A stretch of 64,000 nt of DNA, taken from positions 62,001 to 126,000 of the forward strand of contig CALUUZ010000003.1 of the NCBI GenBank assembly GCA_944324075.1, written 5' to 3'. The stretch comes from Candidatus Mailhella excrementigallinarum (GTDB lineage: Bacteria > Desulfobacterota > Desulfovibrionia > Desulfovibrionales > Desulfovibrionaceae). Positions 1-6,976 of this stretch are shown here, piece after piece. Under the pieces are notes generated by a model that saw only the letters and a list, made by a program, of their open reading frames with translations, was not told the DNA's origin and ran no database searches. Positions within the stretch are counted from its first letter, which is position 1. Each line of letters starts with the position of its first letter. A program made the translations under genes and the position numbers.

Positions 1-1259
1 TAGATTTTCAGCTGATCGAACCCCATGAAGCCAGCTGAATTCTGAATGGCTACCAGACAGCGATACAGCGCATCCTGCTTTTCCTTCAGGGAAGAATCCC
101 GCTCAAGCGAGGTCATGGAGTCCCTGATAATGGCCTGCTGCTGACGCACCGCTGTACGGAACATATCCAGATCATCCTCGTTCCGATCCGCCCCGGCGGC
201 CTGAAGAGGCTCTGCTCCCCGAGCGGAAAGATTCTCCGACGCCCCCCGCAGACTCGGCGGCAGAGCGATGGCTCCCCCGGCCACGGCCTGCTGCAGCTGC
301 GCCAGCAGCTCTCCGGCGTCAAAGGGCGAGGCCGTGCCCGCCGTAGGGTCAATGGAGCCGATCAGGGCATCCATGACATCCACTACAACAAGCAGAAGAT
401 CAACCAGTTCATGCGTCACAGCAAGCTCACCCTGCCGCGCGCGGTTGAGCAGCGTCTCCGCCTCATGGGTGAGCCCGTTAAGTTCCTTGTAGTCGATAAT
501 GCCGCTGTTGCCCTTCAGATTATGAAAATACCGGAACAGGTCGTTGACAAGCTCCTTGTTCTCTCCGGGATTCTTTTCCAGTTCCAGCAGGCCGCTGTTA
601 AGATTTTCGGTATTCTCCCGCGCTTCATCGATAAAATCTTTCAAATGCCCTTCTCCGAAAGAGGTCAGCGTGACTGTCCCCTTGCGCGGCAGCGATTCTA
701 TCCAGTCTGCCGTACTCATGGCGTTGCGTGCGGAACGCGGCGAATCTGGCGCGGATACGGACTCGCCGGAAGCGGACTCCTGCCCCTCAGTTTTTTCAGA
801 CACGGGCAGGGCGGAAACTTCAGGAGAGGACCGTACGGGTTCAGGTGACGGCTGGGAGGCGGACTGTCCGGACATGAGCGCATCAATCTGCGCGATGATA
901 TGCTCAATGGGCACGTCACCTTCAGAATTGGTAGCCTCCAGATTATCAATCATTTGACGCAGAGCATCGGTGGAGGCCAGGATGACATCCATGATTTCGG
1001 GAGTCACGACCATGGTGCCCTTGCGCAGCTCATCCAGAATATTCTCCGAACGATGCGCCAGCAGATTGATGCGGTTCAGGCCGAGAAAGCCGGAAGCTCC
1101 CTTGAGGGAATGCATGGGCCGAAAAATTTCATTCAGCAGATTGAGATTGTCCGGCGCCTTTTCCAGCTCAAGCAGATTGGGCTCGATGGTTTCCAGGTGT
1201 TCCTTGGATTCGATGATAAAATCCGCGATAAGTTCCGGATCGAGAAAATCCTGGCTCAT
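1..1259 (-). CDS. cheA: Chemotaxis histidine kinase CheA, N-terminal part (gene runs off the window start)
   Basis: The visible 419 codons are the phosphotransfer half of a CheA kinase, which takes phosphate from its own ATPase domain (outside the window) and passes it to CheY and CheB. Reading begins MSQDFLDPEL. A first HPt domain carries the phospho-accepting histidine in HSLKG at about residue 50. After a Ser/Pro/Glu-rich linker a second HPt domain has HNLKG at about residue 246. A third related helix bundle begins near residue 340, but valine stands where the histidine should be (QNSAGFMGF region near residue 400). There is no stop before position 1, so the kinase, dimerisation and CheW-like domains are not visible. 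It lies 215 bases downstream of cheY as the last visible gene of the chemotaxis operon. The family call is firm; full length is unknown. Confidence 0.93.
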   Translation of the reverse strand, partial: MSQDFLDPELIADFIIESKEHLETIEPNLLELEKAPDNLNLLNEIFRPMHSLKGASGFLGLNRINLLAHRSENILDELRKGTMVVTPEIMDVILASTDALRQMIDNLEATNSEGDVPIEHIIAQIDALMSGQSASQPSPEPVRSSPEVSALPVSEKTEGQESASGESVSAPDSPRSARNAMSTADWIESLPRKGTVTLTSFGEGHLKDFIDEARENTENLNSGLLELEKNPGENKELVNDLFRYFHNLKGNSGIIDYKELNGLTHEAETLLNRARQGELAVTHELVDLLLVVVDVMDALIGSIDPTAGTASPFDAGELLAQLQQAVAGGAIALPPSLRGASENLSARGAEPLQAAGADRNEDDLDMFRTAVRQQQAIIRDSMTSLERDSSLKEKQDALYRCLVAIQNSAGFMGFDQLKI

Positions 1260-1474
1260 ACATCTCACCTTTCGCGCCGGCCCGAGGCGATGCGCGAGTT
1301 GTAAAATAACAAAACACGACGTCAGTTACCGTTGCTCTTTCCGCAGTCCAGGCAAGACATGCGGCGGAAAACGCAATGTTCCGCATTCCTGACGATCGGA
1401 TAAACAACAAACTGGAACATTATGTCGAACGATGCAATCCAGTTCTGAACACATCTCGATAACACGCTTATCGG

Positions 1475-1843
1475 TCAACCGAGCAGCATCTTTATATTGC
1501 GAACCATTTTCTCCGGTTGTGCGGGCTTGACCATATACAGATTGGCCCCCAGTTGAATGCCTTTCTGGATGTCACGCTCCTCACCTTCCGTGGACAGGAT
1601 GATGATGGGAATATCCTTATAGATATCCTGCTCGCGCACTTGTGCGATAAAGGTAAAACCGTCCATGCGCGGCATATTGATATCGGACAGGATAAGATCT
1701 ACCGATTCCATGGCGTAAAGCTTTTCCAGCCCGTCCAGCCCATCTTCCGCAGTCGTGACCTTGAAGCCTTCCGCCTTGAGAATAAAGGCGACAAGATTAC
1801 GCACTGTCTTGGAGTCATCGACAATAAGAATATGTTTGCTCAT
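1475..1843 (-). CDS. cheY: CheY-type single-domain response regulator
   Basis: A 122-residue stand-alone receiver domain. The acidic pair is in LIVDDS near the N-terminus, the phospho-acceptor aspartate is in LILSDINMPRMDG (about residue 54), the conserved Thr/Ser is in IIILSTEG, and the lysine is in YMVKPAQ. These are all the residues needed to accept phosphate from CheA. It starts 10 bases after the stop of the CheW-like gene and precedes cheA, so it is part of the same operon. The output is either the flagellar switch or, if the cluster controls another behaviour, an unknown target. The presence of fliL-fliQ elsewhere in the window supports a motility role. Confidence 0.95.
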   Translation of the reverse strand: MSKHILIVDDSKTVRNLVAFILKAEGFKVTTAEDGLDGLEKLYAMESVDLILSDINMPRMDGFTFIAQVREQDIYKDIPIIILSTEGEERDIQKGIQLGANLYMVKPAQPEKMVRNIKMLLG

Positions 1844-1852
1844 GGCTATATC

Positions 1853-2788
1853 CTAGCCCTCCAACAGTTTGGCGACCAAGCGCTCGACCGATAAAATTCC
1901 CAGAAGTTTTTCATCCGTTTCCAGCAGCCCGGAAAGAAGTTCCGCGCTGGAACCAAGGTGCAGTTCCGCATTCCAGTTGAACTTGTCCTGCTTCGCCTTG
2001 TGTATGGTATGCAGCCGGGAAACAAGCAGCCCCAGCTTCATGCCCCGCGCCTCACAGATAATGATCAGGCCATGCTCGTCGGGAAGCTCGCCGCCCTGCA
2101 GCGTCAGCAGATCCACCATATTGATGACCGGCAGAATGCTGCCACGCAAATTGACCACTCCAGGCAGGAATGACGGTGCCTGCGGCAGTCGGTGCAGAGC
2201 AGTATAGTGGATGACTTCCAGCACGGAATCAATGGGCACGACAAAGACATCCCGGCCCACATAGAATCCCACCGTCGTCACAGTCTCAAGCGAACGCAGC
2301 CTGTCATCAACCGACTCCCATTCTGCCTCGCTGTCCATGGTCAGTCTTTTCACGGAAAGAGGAACGGCAGGCTCACCCTCCGTTTCCCCTTGCAGGCTGG
2401 TGTCCGTCAGAATTTCAGCATCATGGAAAATTTCAGTGAGACTCTCCTCCTGATGAATGGGGGATTCCGAAGAAAGAGTTCCAGCTTCTCCCGAGAGGGG
2501 GAGATGTTCTGACGCAGCACTTTCTGTCACACAGGGAACGGACTGCGGCTGAACAGAACTCTGCTCTGATCCGCCGGAAGGAGCGGAAGCTCTGATCGTC
2601 AGTACGCTTTCTCCCTCCACTCTGGGCAGAGATGCCATGTCCCGCAGATCGGCCGGGTCGTCCACACCCAGATATTTGCGCAGAAACTGGCGTTCCGCCG
2701 GAGAAATCTCCCGCTGTTCGCCCCCGTGTGCGCTCGACAGAGAAAAATCCTGTTCCTGAAAATATTCCATGGGGGACTTCACTGCCAT
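1853..2788 (-). CDS. Long CheW-domain protein, ParP-like candidate
   Basis: The 311-residue protein has a C-terminal CheW domain (about residues 165-305; GVVNLRGSILPVINM and GLLVSRL are typical). About 160 residues of acidic, Ser/Glu-rich, poorly structured sequence precede it. A plain CheW is about 150-170 residues, and a separate CheW of that size lies at 34262-34738. The gene overlaps the end of the upstream ParA-like gene by 10 bases. In Vibrio, a ParA-like ATPase (ParC) and a protein with a C-terminal CheW-like domain (ParP) are encoded together in the chemotaxis operon and hold arrays at the pole. The size, domain order and coupling here fit that pair. Assignment as ParP rather than an extended CheW adaptor is inference. 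Confidence 0.85.
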   Translation of the reverse strand: MAVKSPMEYFQEQDFSLSSAHGGEQREISPAERQFLRKYLGVDDPADLRDMASLPRVEGESVLTIRASAPSGGSEQSSVQPQSVPCVTESAASEHLPLSGEAGTLSSESPIHQEESLTEIFHDAEILTDTSLQGETEGEPAVPLSVKRLTMDSEAEWESVDDRLRSLETVTTVGFYVGRDVFVVPIDSVLEVIHYTALHRLPQAPSFLPGVVNLRGSILPVINMVDLLTLQGGELPDEHGLIIICEARGMKLGLLVSRLHTIHKAKQDKFNWNAELHLGSSAELLSGLLETDEKLLGILSVERLVAKLLEG

Positions 2789-3555
2789 AGGGCGGCCACC
2801 TCCTCGGCCAACTCTGCATATCCTATCGCGCCCCGGCTGTGAGGGTCGATATCGTAAATTACCTTGCCCTGTGCGCTGGCTTCACGAAAGCGCGTATCCA
2901 TGCTGATCACGGAGGAAAACATGGATGTCCCCAGTTTGCGCGTCAGCATATCCAGAACCTGAGTACAGGCTCTGGCACGCCGATCATACATGGTGGCAAA
3001 GGCTCTGTAACGAATGGGCGAGGGAAGAGCCTGATTCAGCGTGCGGACGGTGTCAAACAGCAGCATCAGCCCGTGCAGGGCCAGGAAATCCGTCTGAATT
3101 GGGATAATGAGCAGATCGGATGCAACCAGGGCATTCGCCATAATCAGCCCCATATGGGGCGGACAGTCCAGCAGAACATAATCGTATTTCTCGCGCAGGC
3201 AGACAAGAGCCCGCTTGAGAATCAAGCCTTTGCCCTTTCTGTCTTTAAGGTCGCCCTCAAGCTCGGAGAGCCGTATACTGCCCGGCCCGAAATCGCAGAT
3301 CTGACCTTCCTGGCGGGTAATGATACGCTTCCAGACATCTTCCCAGCCATCCTCGGCCTGAAAAAGCTCGAACATGGTAGGTGTCGCTTCATCGGGATAA
3401 AAACGCATATGCACCGAAGCGCAGATATGCGGATCAAGATCCAGCAGAAGCACCTTTTCACCCCGACGAGCCAGGGCCGCTCCCAGGGACAGTGTCGTGG
3501 TGGTCTTGCCCACCCCCCCCTTCTGGTTTGCAATGGCAAGAACTTTGGCCTGCAT
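2779..3555 (-). CDS. ParA/Soj-family ATPase in chemotaxis operon (ParC-like)
   Basis: The 258-residue P-loop ATPase is of the ParA/MinD class. The deviant Walker A motif KGGVGKTT is at residues 12-19, the A' motif LLLDLDP is near residue 39, and Walker B is YVLLDCPP near residue 128. Such ATPases position cargo on the nucleoid or pole. There is no parB or parS-like gene next to it. It lies 2 bases downstream of cheR and overlaps the CheW-like gene, so its cargo is most likely the chemosensory array, as for ParC (Vibrio) or PpfA (Rhodobacter). The Walker A codons contain a run of eight G on the coding strand (complement of 3513-3520). General ParA function is clear; the specific role is inferred from context. 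Confidence 0.9.
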   Translation of the reverse strand: MQAKVLAIANQKGGVGKTTTTLSLGAALARRGEKVLLLDLDPHICASVHMRFYPDEATPTMFELFQAEDGWEDVWKRIITRQEGQICDFGPGSIRLSELEGDLKDRKGKGLILKRALVCLREKYDYVLLDCPPHMGLIMANALVASDLLIIPIQTDFLALHGLMLLFDTVRTLNQALPSPIRYRAFATMYDRRARACTQVLDMLTRKLGTSMFSSVISMDTRFREASAQGKVIYDIDPHSRGAIGYAELAEEVAALWQ

Positions 3556-3557
3556 GG

Positions 3558-5033
3558 TTAAACCTGTTTCCGGTAGACAATGGAACCCGCGTAGTGTTCA
3601 GGTTTGAACGCGCGGCTGATATTATGCAGCGACTCGGAATGCCCGATGAGCAGATATCCTCCGGGCAGCAGATTGTCATAAAAGGCGTTGATTACGCTGC
3701 GTTTCATCTCGTCATCAAAATAGATGATGACATTACGGCAAAAAACGATATGCGAACGTTCCACCTTGGCAAGCTGCATTTTATCACTGAGGTTAATCTG
3801 CCCGAATGTCACAAGCTTCTGCAGGGAAGGAGCTATCCGGTACAGATTTCCCTCCCGGGTAAAGTATTTCGCCAGCATATCCGGCGGTGTGGTACGGATG
3901 GCGTAGTCATTATACAGCCCTCTGCGCGCCGAAGCCAGCATGGCCAGAGACAGATCGTTGGCAGTAATTCTGATATCCCAGCTTGAAAGCTCCTGTCGGA
4001 GTACCTCATTCAGGATTATCGCCAAAGTGTAGGGTTCTTCTCCAGAAGAACAGCCTGCTGACCAGATGCGCAACTTGCGTTGTCCTCTGGCCCGCAGCTC
4101 TCCTATAAGCGGCACCAGAACCTTGTCGCGAAAAACATTCAGCTGCGGCCCGTTGCGGAAAAAGCTCGTCTCGTTCGTGGTCATGCTCTCGAACAGCTTG
4201 TTCATTTCCGCTGCACGGTTGGCGTCATAGCGCAGATAATTGTAATATTCCCCGAAGCTCCGCAGTCCAAGTTCACGCAGGCGCGAAGAAAGCCGGTTTT
4301 CTACCAGATATTTGCGATTTTCTGCAATAAATATGCCGCTCTGCTGGTACAGAAAATCCCTCAGTTGAATAAACTCCGTATCCGATACACGCACATCGCG
4401 CTGCCGCAGCGAGGAAAAGCCGGGAGCCGCCGGTCCGGCCGACACCGGCGCACCGAACACGGGCTTTGACGGAAGGTTCTGCGATGCGGGCGGACGACCG
4501 GCGAAAGATGAAGTCCTGATTCCGCCACCTGACTCCGTGCGGCAAACGGGATCACGGGGCGGAAACAGAGGTTTGCCCGGACTCCCCGAACCAGCCGTCC
4601 CCTGGCCAGACGTCTCCCGACGCGGAAATAAAGGTGTGGAGGTATCCCGGGGAGGAAAAAGCGGCGCCCTGGCTTCGCGCGGGGGAAACAACGGCGAACG
4701 GGAGGTTCCCCGCTCTTCCGTCCCGTTCTCCCGCCGGGGGAACAGAGGTTCCCGGTTTTCTCGAGGAGGAAACAGGGGCGCGCGCGGAGGTGTCGCCGGC
4801 GTACCGACGGAGGAAGCTGGATCCCGCCGGGGAAAAACGGGTTTCTGCTCAGGATTCACGGCGAAGGAGCGCAATATCCCCGATGTGCCGGAAGCCGCCG
4901 CGCCATCATCCTTTTCTCCGGGCCGATTTGAAACAATCGGATCACGGGAAGGAAACAGGAGCTTTCTGTCTTTGCCTGCTCCCGAATTTCCATCGCCGTT
5001 ACCGGAAGGAGAATTTCCAAACAGGGTACTCAT
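3558..5033 (-). CDS. cheR: CheR MCP methyltransferase with N-terminal FPxR peptide array
   Basis: The C-terminal 275 residues form a CheR S-adenosylmethionine methyltransferase that methylates receptor glutamates. An N-terminal helical subdomain starts at VSDTEFIQLRDF (about 217), followed by SAGCSSGEEPY (SAM site), ANDLS and FCRNVIIYFD. Typical CheR is about 270-290 residues; this one is 491. The extra 200 N-terminal residues are low-complexity and carry eight copies of a hydrophobic-F-P-x-R-[D/E] peptide (Phe at 27, 67, 88, 98, 116, 126, 136 and 157), for example PLFPPRD and PLFPRRE. The gene overlaps the upstream HEAT-repeat gene by four bases, so the two are translationally coupled. The methyltransferase call is firm; the peptide array has no function I recognise. 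Confidence 0.93.
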   Translation of the reverse strand: MSTLFGNSPSGNGDGNSGAGKDRKLLFPSRDPIVSNRPGEKDDGAAASGTSGILRSFAVNPEQKPVFPRRDPASSVGTPATPPRAPLFPPRENREPLFPRRENGTEERGTSRSPLFPPREARAPLFPPRDTSTPLFPRRETSGQGTAGSGSPGKPLFPPRDPVCRTESGGGIRTSSFAGRPPASQNLPSKPVFGAPVSAGPAAPGFSSLRQRDVRVSDTEFIQLRDFLYQQSGIFIAENRKYLVENRLSSRLRELGLRSFGEYYNYLRYDANRAAEMNKLFESMTTNETSFFRNGPQLNVFRDKVLVPLIGELRARGQRKLRIWSAGCSSGEEPYTLAIILNEVLRQELSSWDIRITANDLSLAMLASARRGLYNDYAIRTTPPDMLAKYFTREGNLYRIAPSLQKLVTFGQINLSDKMQLAKVERSHIVFCRNVIIYFDDEMKRSVINAFYDNLLPGGYLLIGHSESLHNISRAFKPEHYAGSIVYRKQV

Positions 5034-6976
5034 GCCTGCGACTCCTCTTCCCCACGGATGCGATCAATGGCCTCGGCTGCAGCCGCCTGCACCTCGGGGG
5101 ATTCATATGACATGAAGCCGAGCAGAGCCTGAAATGCCATGTCGCCGCCAATCTGGCCGAGAGCTTCGGCAATCTTGAGCTGCACCAGAAGATTCGAATG
5201 TTCCATCATGGTGACCAGCTCCGGCACAGCCGAAGATACACGGTTCCGCCCCAGAGCCTCTACCGCGCGCACACGAACCCAGTCATCGGGATCATGCAGC
5301 GCCTCCAGCAGAAGAGATTCTCCTCCTTCCTCCCCGTATGTCCCCAGAAGCTCCACCGCCAACTGGCGGACATCGCGGCTTTCATCACGCAGGCAGAATT
5401 CCAGGGCGGCAAGCTTTTCCGGAGAGGGCGGCCAGCCGTAGCCGATGGCCTCAAGCCCGACTCTGCGCACTTCCGTCACCGGATCCTGAACCGCCCTGGC
5501 AAGCTGTTCGGCAAAAAGCCCGGCATTGACGTATCCCATGGTATAAACGGCCATACGCCGCAAATCAGGATCCTCATCCTCAGCATGAGCCACAATGGCC
5601 CTGACGGTATCCTCATCCTCAAGCGCCAGACAGGCGGAAAGAGCGGCTTCCTTCACTGCCGGATCCGGATGATGGAGAAGCGCGAGCATGCGCGGAGCTG
5701 ATTCTCTATGGCGCATGTTATTGCCGAGGAATTCAAGCGCCGACCTGAGCACCTGGGCATCTTCCGCAGTATCCATGTGATTGTTGAAAAACGGAATGTC
5801 ACGATCATCGCCGCAGCGGGCCAGAATTTCCATGGCCCGCTGACGCTCCTCGGCAGGCAGGGCATCAAAATGGCGTTTCAAAGCATATTTGCCGGCCCGC
5901 CCCTCGATGTGTCCGCACGCGTCCACCGCCATGCGGCAGACGAGTTCATTCCTGTCCAGCAGAGCCTCTTCCAGAGCCTCATTATATCCGATGCCCACAA
6001 TGCACTGGAAGGCATGCTGAAGAAGCTCCTGCTGCCTGACAGGATCCGTTCTCTCGACCAGCCTGAATACGGCTCTTGTCGCGGTGGGATTCACGCCCGT
6101 GAAAGCCAGCCCCTGCAGAACCACTTTCACGGTGTCCTCATCCTCGTCATCCAGCGCCGCCAGCATGTAGGCCTGCAGCTTGTCCAGCTGCTTCGCGCCG
6201 AGCAGACTCAGGGAATTCGGCCCCAGAATCCGGATGATGGCCTTAAGCGCCTTGATGCGCAGGGGGCCGCTGGATTTGTCGAGATAGGAAAGCAGCATGG
6301 GAGCGCTCTTGACGCTGTTGATCTCCCCCAGTGCGTCCAGCACGGTAGAGGCGACCAGCGGCGAACATCTGTCCAGAGCGTGCACCAGAACATCCACGCA
6401 GGAACCATCCTTGATTTTCGCCAGAGCTTCCATCACGGCGTACTGAACCCATTCCTCATCATCCAGCGCCTGCCGCAGGCTTTCCACAGCCTCCGGGCGG
6501 CGCAGCTCGCCAAGACTCACCGCCGCCTGATAACGCACATTGACTTCCGAATCGTGCAGAAGCACGTCGCACAACGGGGCAAGAGCCATGGAACTGTCGG
6601 AAGACCCCAGAATATCCGCAATGAAAATACGGATGTCGGGATCCTGATCATACAGGAGTCTGGTCAGTGTCGCCAAATCGTCCACCCCAATCTCGCGCAG
6701 AACATCCATGGCGATATTGCGTACCACGGCATCCTGAGACCGCAGCAGCGGGATGACGGCCCGCACCGCCGCGGCGCCGCGAATCTGACGCAATGCCCGT
6801 TCGGACGCCTCCTGCACGCCCACGCTGCTGTTTGCAAAATGCTCCACCAGCAGCGGGACGGCGCTCTCCAGACGCAAGTCTCCGGCATCAAAGGCCGCCT
6901 GCCTTGCCAGAGAGGCATTTTCACTGGCAAGCCGTTTCAGGACGTCCTGTTCTTTCTGCGCATCAACGTCACTCAT
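5030..6976 (-). CDS. HEAT/PBS-lyase-type repeat protein of the chemotaxis operon
   Basis: The 648 residues are almost entirely tandem HEAT-like helical repeats of about 31 residues, recognisable by recurring V-R-x-x-A-x-x-x-L and D-x-x-x-x-V-R patterns (for example DPDIRIFIADIL, DPDDWVRVRAVEALG). No enzymatic domain, signal peptide or membrane segment is seen. HEAT solenoids are protein-binding scaffolds, often for short linear peptides. It is the second gene of the chemotaxis operon, 30 bases after cheB and overlapping cheR by four bases. A scaffold or adaptor role between chemotaxis proteins is likely, and the peptide array on CheR is an obvious candidate ligand. That pairing is inference; no function is established from sequence. 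Confidence 0.88.
   Translation of the reverse strand: MSDVDAQKEQDVLKRLASENASLARQAAFDAGDLRLESAVPLLVEHFANSSVGVQEASERALRQIRGAAAVRAVIPLLRSQDAVVRNIAMDVLREIGVDDLATLTRLLYDQDPDIRIFIADILGSSDSSMALAPLCDVLLHDSEVNVRYQAAVSLGELRRPEAVESLRQALDDEEWVQYAVMEALAKIKDGSCVDVLVHALDRCSPLVASTVLDALGEINSVKSAPMLLSYLDKSSGPLRIKALKAIIRILGPNSLSLLGAKQLDKLQAYMLAALDDEDEDTVKVVLQGLAFTGVNPTATRAVFRLVERTDPVRQQELLQHAFQCIVGIGYNEALEEALLDRNELVCRMAVDACGHIEGRAGKYALKRHFDALPAEERQRAMEILARCGDDRDIPFFNNHMDTAEDAQVLRSALEFLGNNMRHRESAPRMLALLHHPDPAVKEAALSACLALEDEDTVRAIVAHAEDEDPDLRRMAVYTMGYVNAGLFAEQLARAVQDPVTEVRRVGLEAIGYGWPPSPEKLAALEFCLRDESRDVRQLAVELLGTYGEEGGESLLLEALHDPDDWVRVRAVEALGRNRVSSAVPELVTMMEHSNLLVQLKIAEALGQIGGDMAFQALLGFMSYESPEVQAAAAEAIDRIRGEEESQA

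Follow-up and report, generated by a model that had tools for sequence, protein, structure and literature searches.

The chemotaxis methyltransferase CheR encoded in the window, a 64,000-nucleotide stretch of Candidatus Mailhella excrementigallinarum DNA (contig CALUUZ010000003.1, positions 62,001 to 126,000), begins with a long extension that is supported as a selected, multivalent short-motif region, predicted to be disordered. The array seems to have arisen when a short phenylalanine motif, carried once by the CheRs of Desulfovibrio relatives, was multiplied in this lineage, and the interest of the locus lies mainly in this conserved N-terminal motif and its repeated multiplication. We tentatively favor, at a little short of an even chance, the reading that the extension acts as a disordered multivalent tether on the CheR side. 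The features that bear on it are as follows.

Positions 3558..5033, minus strand: cheR, 491 aa, with the extension (residues 1-215) followed by methyltransferase domains (residues 220-478; Pfam PF03705, PF01739).
Positions 4389..5033, minus strand: the predicted disordered CheR N-terminal extension (residues 1-215), with 13 Phe, including 8 within PLFPx[RK][DE] copies.
Positions 4547..4967, minus strand: full span of the eight [LV]FPxR[DE] copies.
Positions 5007..5033, minus strand: MSTLFGNSP, the CheR N-terminus, in which the ancestral LF motif is retained (relatives: MSSLFSK...).
Positions 5030..6976, minus strand: gene for a HEAT-repeat alpha-solenoid, 648 aa (Pfam and AlphaFold2 model).

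Pfam places the start of CheR_N at residue 220 (PF03705, E 4.5e-15) and that of the CheR domain at residue 287 (PF01739, E 8.4e-55), leaving ~215 extra N-terminal residues ahead of a core whose motifs are intact and whose residues are invariant across 58 sequences. In an AlphaFold2 model based on the 58-sequence alignment, residues 1-215 had a predicted local distance difference test score (pLDDT) of ~40-60 with no helix or strand, and the catalytic part scored mostly 71-98, which bears out the original description of about 200 additional disordered residues. Matches to the pattern [LIVMF]FP.R[DE] place their Phe at residues 27, 67, 88, 98, 116, 126, 136 and 157, exactly the eight positions first given. 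When the extension was shuffled 20,000 times, one copy of the motif appeared in 82 shuffles and two copies in none. F, P and R are unchanged through all eight copies, which are written with differing synonymous codons (Leu by four codons, plus one Val; the Pro at +1 by three; Arg by four), and this argues that the peptide is under selection. The AlphaFold2 model of CheR gave no visible sign of any copy docking onto CheR itself.

We found the array in three genomes only, with 8 copies in L001, 11 in L002/L077 and 5 in L003/L078, the third genome of the Mailhella clade, where they read LFPSRT, LFPPRA, LFPPKS, LFPPRP and LFPRKD; a two-copy Mailhella peptide is REPLFPRRENGTEERGTSRSPLFPPREA. Across these 24 copies, F, P and R/K are each present in 24/24 and D/E in 19/24, such that the motif core, as read from the copies, is P-L-F-P-x-[RK] and the acidic residue lies outside it; the hydrophobic-F-P-x-R-[D/E] form originally proposed stands in its F, P and basic positions and falls at its acidic end. 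Searching the whole genome with a two-copy DNA pattern returned four matches, three of them within cheR and the fourth at C5, with halves that are mutually out of frame, and no further in-frame array. A single-motif DNA pattern was too degenerate for this purpose (302 matches vs 139 in the control) and was set aside. Repetitive disordered scaffolds of the CsoS2 type (PMC11365436) likewise repeat short motifs within a disordered bacterial protein, but differ in sequence, size and process, and partner binding, demonstrated for them, is a proposal for the array described here.

Most relatives' CheRs have ~18 residues ahead of the first domain, reading MSSLFSKTISLRKELKISD or a near variant (MSSLFSNSITLRKE in the D. 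vulgaris type). Phe falls at residues 3-15 in 102 of 107 distinct CheR N-termini (scripted count, one of them through a late F alone), with L at -1 in 70, S or P at +1 in 66 and K at +2 in 43, and the usual form, L-F-[S/P]-x, is followed by variable residues (SKTISLRKE, STSGAVGGE, PTSTSSVPS). CheRs of the class Desulfovibrionia thus carry a nearly universal N-terminal short motif, [S/A/P]-L-F-[S/P]-x. The Mailhella extension begins MSTLFGNSP and finishes SSLRQRDVRVSD, which match the front and back parts of the ancestral tail, indicating that the array was inserted between them: the Mailhella clade gained up to ~250 residues, with 5-11 copies of P-L-F-P-x-[R/K], between the LF motif and the old linker LRKELKIS. 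Some Desulfovibrio CheRs open with SSLFPPK, PTLFPKS or IFPPKK, close to the Mailhella unit in a single N-terminal copy.

Extensions longer than 45 aa were not confined to one lineage. On a HEAT tree built by a quick method they imply at least four changes (Mailhella with its sister genus g51; a Desulfovibrio group; L132; L121/L124), and the tail sequences are group-specific (PLFPxR; SPFRS/SAFRP/SPFGKP; PSFGQNRPTFGQ). The 41 extensions contain 4.7% F and 0.3% W+Y, and F is preceded by Ser at -2 in 52% of cases (3.6x) and by Pro or Leu at -1, with R/K enriched at +1 to +3. In other linkers of the operon, F accounts for 0.1% in CheA, 3.2% in long CheW and 3.8% in CheB (a small sample). Because the enrichment is strong relative to the CheA linker and modest relative to CheW and CheB, F content alone is not decisive, and weight falls on the order of the motif and the near-zero W and Y. 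We also observed that the CheB linker of the Mailhella clade (window ~7870-7600, minus strand) has 79-82 aa with F/R segments (SGFRPRPSFSLSR, REQFRFPAHS), such that both adaptation enzymes hold F-containing disordered stretches.

The proposed tether was assessed against what is known of CheR recruitment. The window genome has one CheR (its sole PF01739 match) and 19 receptor-domain matches, and none of the receptor C-termini read among these ended in xWxxF. The pentapeptide site of Salmonella CheR comprises Q182, R187, G188, G190, G194 and R197 (PMC2577667); aligned to it, the window CheR has a 4-residue gap opposite the pentapeptide loop GTGP, and Q182 and the glycines are unmatched. Given receptors without the pentapeptide and a CheR without the loop, a motif on the CheR side would fill the tether role. 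CheR itself would then carry the tether, whose multiple copies may add avidity and reach, allowing a single CheR to stay in the receptor array and methylate neighboring receptors. The arrangement would resemble the receptor-side xWxxF tether of Tar and Tsr (PMC2577667, PMC10561060) in proposing that a short motif on a flexible chain keeps CheR near its substrates, but the motif would sit on CheR, be repeated and have another sequence, with the receptor pentapeptide and the CheR beta-loop both absent.

Several observations weigh against this tether, whose function we infer. The motif is lost or degenerate in clade f5 (L007/L008), L059, L067 and L011/L211 despite retention of HEAT and CheR, so it is not essential everywhere. 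Drift could account in part for the F-rich low-complexity tails, chiefly outside Mailhella, where flanking residues follow a looser pattern and some few tails fall as low as 1-3% F. Many CheRs, moreover, function without any tether.

The window genome is 3.7 Mb and Mailhella-like, with 'Candidatus Mailhella merdavium' (L077) as its closest named relative; the L002 CheR is the same as that of L077, and HEAT in G006/L002 is 89% identical to the window HEAT. The remaining genes of the operon are listed below.

Positions 8200-7007, minus strand: cheB, receiver plus methylesterase (Pfam).
Positions 2779..3555, minus strand: ParA-family ATPase gene (Pfam).
Positions 1853..2788, minus strand: long cheW with a conserved N-terminal block, ParP-like by position.
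Positions 1475..1843, minus strand: cheY (Pfam).
Positions 3..1268, minus strand: cheA, the start of a gene that continues past the window end (open reading frame list and place of cheA in relatives).

The resulting order, cheB-HEAT-cheR-parA-cheW(long)-cheY-cheA, is that of most sampled loci of the class, and on this basis we identify it with the cheA3 operon conserved in Desulfovibrio, which in D. vulgaris contains a parA homolog and is required for motility halos (PMC3944678). The original statement that no chemotaxis system of this shape had been described was therefore too strong. Both operons have a parA homolog and place cheA last (DVU2072 being the terminal gene), while the published account names neither HEAT nor CheR (PMC3944678). 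The Nitratidesulfovibrio-type CheR differs from that of the window in having no array, its 18-residue tail holding a single LF motif. HEAT and CheR are probably shared by the D. vulgaris operon, as gene order in Nitratidesulfovibrio and Desulfovibrio loci and the general make-up of the DVU2072-2078 region indicate. No specific description of the LF motif, of extended CheR tails or of a HEAT protein in this operon was found in the open-access literature. Within genus g1 (G001-G018), the HEAT ortholog is absent in 16/18 genus mates and a CheR of the window type occurs in 0/11 checked, which suggests that this chemotaxis system was lost in most of the genus. Beside the operon, a short open reading frame (window 9109-8801, minus strand) looks by eye like an IS200-type transposase fragment.

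The HEAT gene overlaps cheR by 4 bp (6976-5030 vs 5033-3558), and the 648-residue solenoid first described was confirmed: its AlphaFold2 model is an all-helical solenoid of ~39 helices (mean pLDDT 94.9), the protein matches PF13646 (E 1.5e-66), and PDB searches returned HEAT folds. Full-length orthologs were present in 230 of 288 family genomes and 201 of 247 class genomes, the sets searched, and HEAT adjoins a CheR of this type in the examined class loci almost without exception. Among 30 genomes without HEAT, a CheR match at E 1e-10 was missing from 20, nine had distant CheRs only (27-39%), and one (G146) had a window-type CheR with 55% identity to that of the window and a tail, MGLLTSSSL, that lacks F. 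Its genus mate G145 retains HEAT and a CheR tail reading MASLFSKT; G146 was nevertheless rejected as a clean co-loss of HEAT and F motif, as the two CheRs are just 53% identical and not a simple ortholog pair. Taken together, a tight CheR-HEAT gene partnership is supported by gene content and order.

In other Desulfobacterota families (L260, L262-L271), full-length HEAT homologs (25-33%) lie beside or near cheR and cheY, and the CheR tails have no F motif. Of the 118 HEAT positions conserved in the class, 45 recur in these homologs, N87, F118, D121, N146 and W176 among them, indicating that the HEAT-CheR pairing is older than the motif. A HEAT companion of CheR is thus phylum-wide in Desulfobacterota and apparently unstudied. 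Comparable arrangements include the CheR-TPR fusions WspC and FrzF (PMC3447774), in which CheR is also associated with an alpha-solenoid protein-binding module, except that the window solenoid is HEAT and encoded by a separate gene, and its CheR has a disordered motif array and no fused domain. The haloarchaeal HEAT_PBS protein OE2401F, which we liken to HEAT by genomic setting and not by orthology, is also encoded with che genes and is required for taxis, but its binding partners, close to the archaeal motor switch, are CheD and a DUF439 protein, and it has no CheR link (PMC2666748).

The age of the HEAT-CheR pairing bears on what the motif would bind. One serious if doubtful alternative is that its target is a polar landmark or some other member of the array, such as CheB, CheA, CheW or a receptor, with HEAT having a different and older job. 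This shares the evidence for the tether and accommodates the older pairing, and in clade f5 cheB is no longer in the operon and the F motif is entirely gone. That clade is a single event, however, and L059, L067 and L211 keep cheB yet have lost or weakened the motif. When alignment columns of the operon proteins were tested for changes that accompany loss of the F motif, no clear partner emerged and no candidate was singled out; the candidates are the members that remain after loss of parA and parP, namely HEAT, CheB, CheA or receptors.

We considered it unlikely on balance that the HEAT solenoid is an adaptor and the array its multivalent ligand, concentrating CheR at the chemotaxis array, although by gene linkage only HEAT is the leading single candidate. 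In its favor are the near-constant adjacency of the two genes in the class, the occurrence of this CheR type in just one of the 30 HEAT-less genomes, as a divergent copy without F, and the retention of HEAT where parA and parP are lost. HEAT is most strongly conserved on the alternate helices of residues 52-219, which plausibly line a ligand groove, and karyopherin beta-2 and other large HEAT solenoids were among the nearest folds in the PDB search. Adjacency is nonetheless weak evidence for contact, and the array does not follow HEAT: most HEAT-bearing genomes have an array-less CheR, with arrays in three genomes and HEAT in 230/288, which is the outcome originally named as a refutation. HEAT also abuts motif-less CheRs elsewhere in the phylum, and the 45/118 common positions imply a groove that is in large part older than the motif. 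Within the class, none of the HEAT columns changes clearly in step with F-motif loss. We saw no HEAT-CheR fusion among unusually long HEAT frames, which had been tried as candidate fusions and proved to be shadow reading frames. HEAT binding of the CheR motif is possible but unsupported. A broader version, decidedly unlikely in our view, would invert the textbook tether: an ancient LF[SP]x[K/R] on CheR would be read by HEAT, and gut lineages would have multiplied this single motif repeatedly into multivalent F-motif arrays, a bacterial analogue of FG-repeat binding by karyopherins that replaces the receptor pentapeptide.

The extension could instead be a mostly passive linker with little function, lengthened by repeat slippage. 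The L002 extension includes recent 28-residue tandem copies, and tail length and sequence vary across gut lineages; even so, we regard this as very unlikely, because F, P and R/K are each invariant in the three genomes despite much synonymous variation, and F was gained repeatedly while Tyr and Trp stayed near zero. We give still less weight to a homotypic sticker, in which F and R would drive self-association or condensation of CheR at the pole. Phe as nearly the only aromatic, with nearby R/K in long S/P/G/A linkers, is a composition typical of sticker-and-spacer regions, but self-association would not call for anything as specific as the ordered P-L-F-P-x-[RK] units of Mailhella, and the ancestral tail, of 18 residues, had just one copy.

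That the array is a ligand of the ParA/ParP-like pair, the other partner originally suggested, is barely credible: parA and the long cheW immediately follow cheR, and the ATPase gene adjoins that of a CheW-domain protein extended at its N-terminus, as in ParC/ParP systems, but both genes are absent from the operon in L079, L091, L094-L096, L101, L102, L105, L107, L108, L110, L113, L117, L154-L156 and L212, where the remainder is kept. ParA matches anywhere in 10 sampled genomes with such operons and in G021 were 33-37% or marginal, vs 57-62% in three controls. These 11 genomes keep HEAT and a CheR with a single F motif or F-rich tail, which speaks against ParA as a required partner and, judging from the genes left in these operons, against ParP as well. 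Separately, the N-terminus of the long CheW (window 2788-2660, minus strand) carries a block, M.K[ST]P..YF.....F...AE..F..KYLG, that is conserved across the class and is a candidate ParA-contact segment.

Of the original interpretation, then, the selected, disordered, multivalent motif and the tight pairing of the CheR and HEAT genes persist, the dependence of the array on HEAT is unsupported and the ParA/ParP ligand is disfavored. The CheR-side tether that we favor addresses the question of how adaptation enzymes locate receptors in bacteria without pentapeptides, and it offers a testable candidate in the form of a motif on the enzyme itself that is conserved across the class and was multiplied several times. 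The locus further draws attention to a HEAT protein, apparently unstudied, that is found with CheR throughout Desulfobacterota. D. vulgaris is a tractable relative, its cheA3 being already known as necessary for motility halos.

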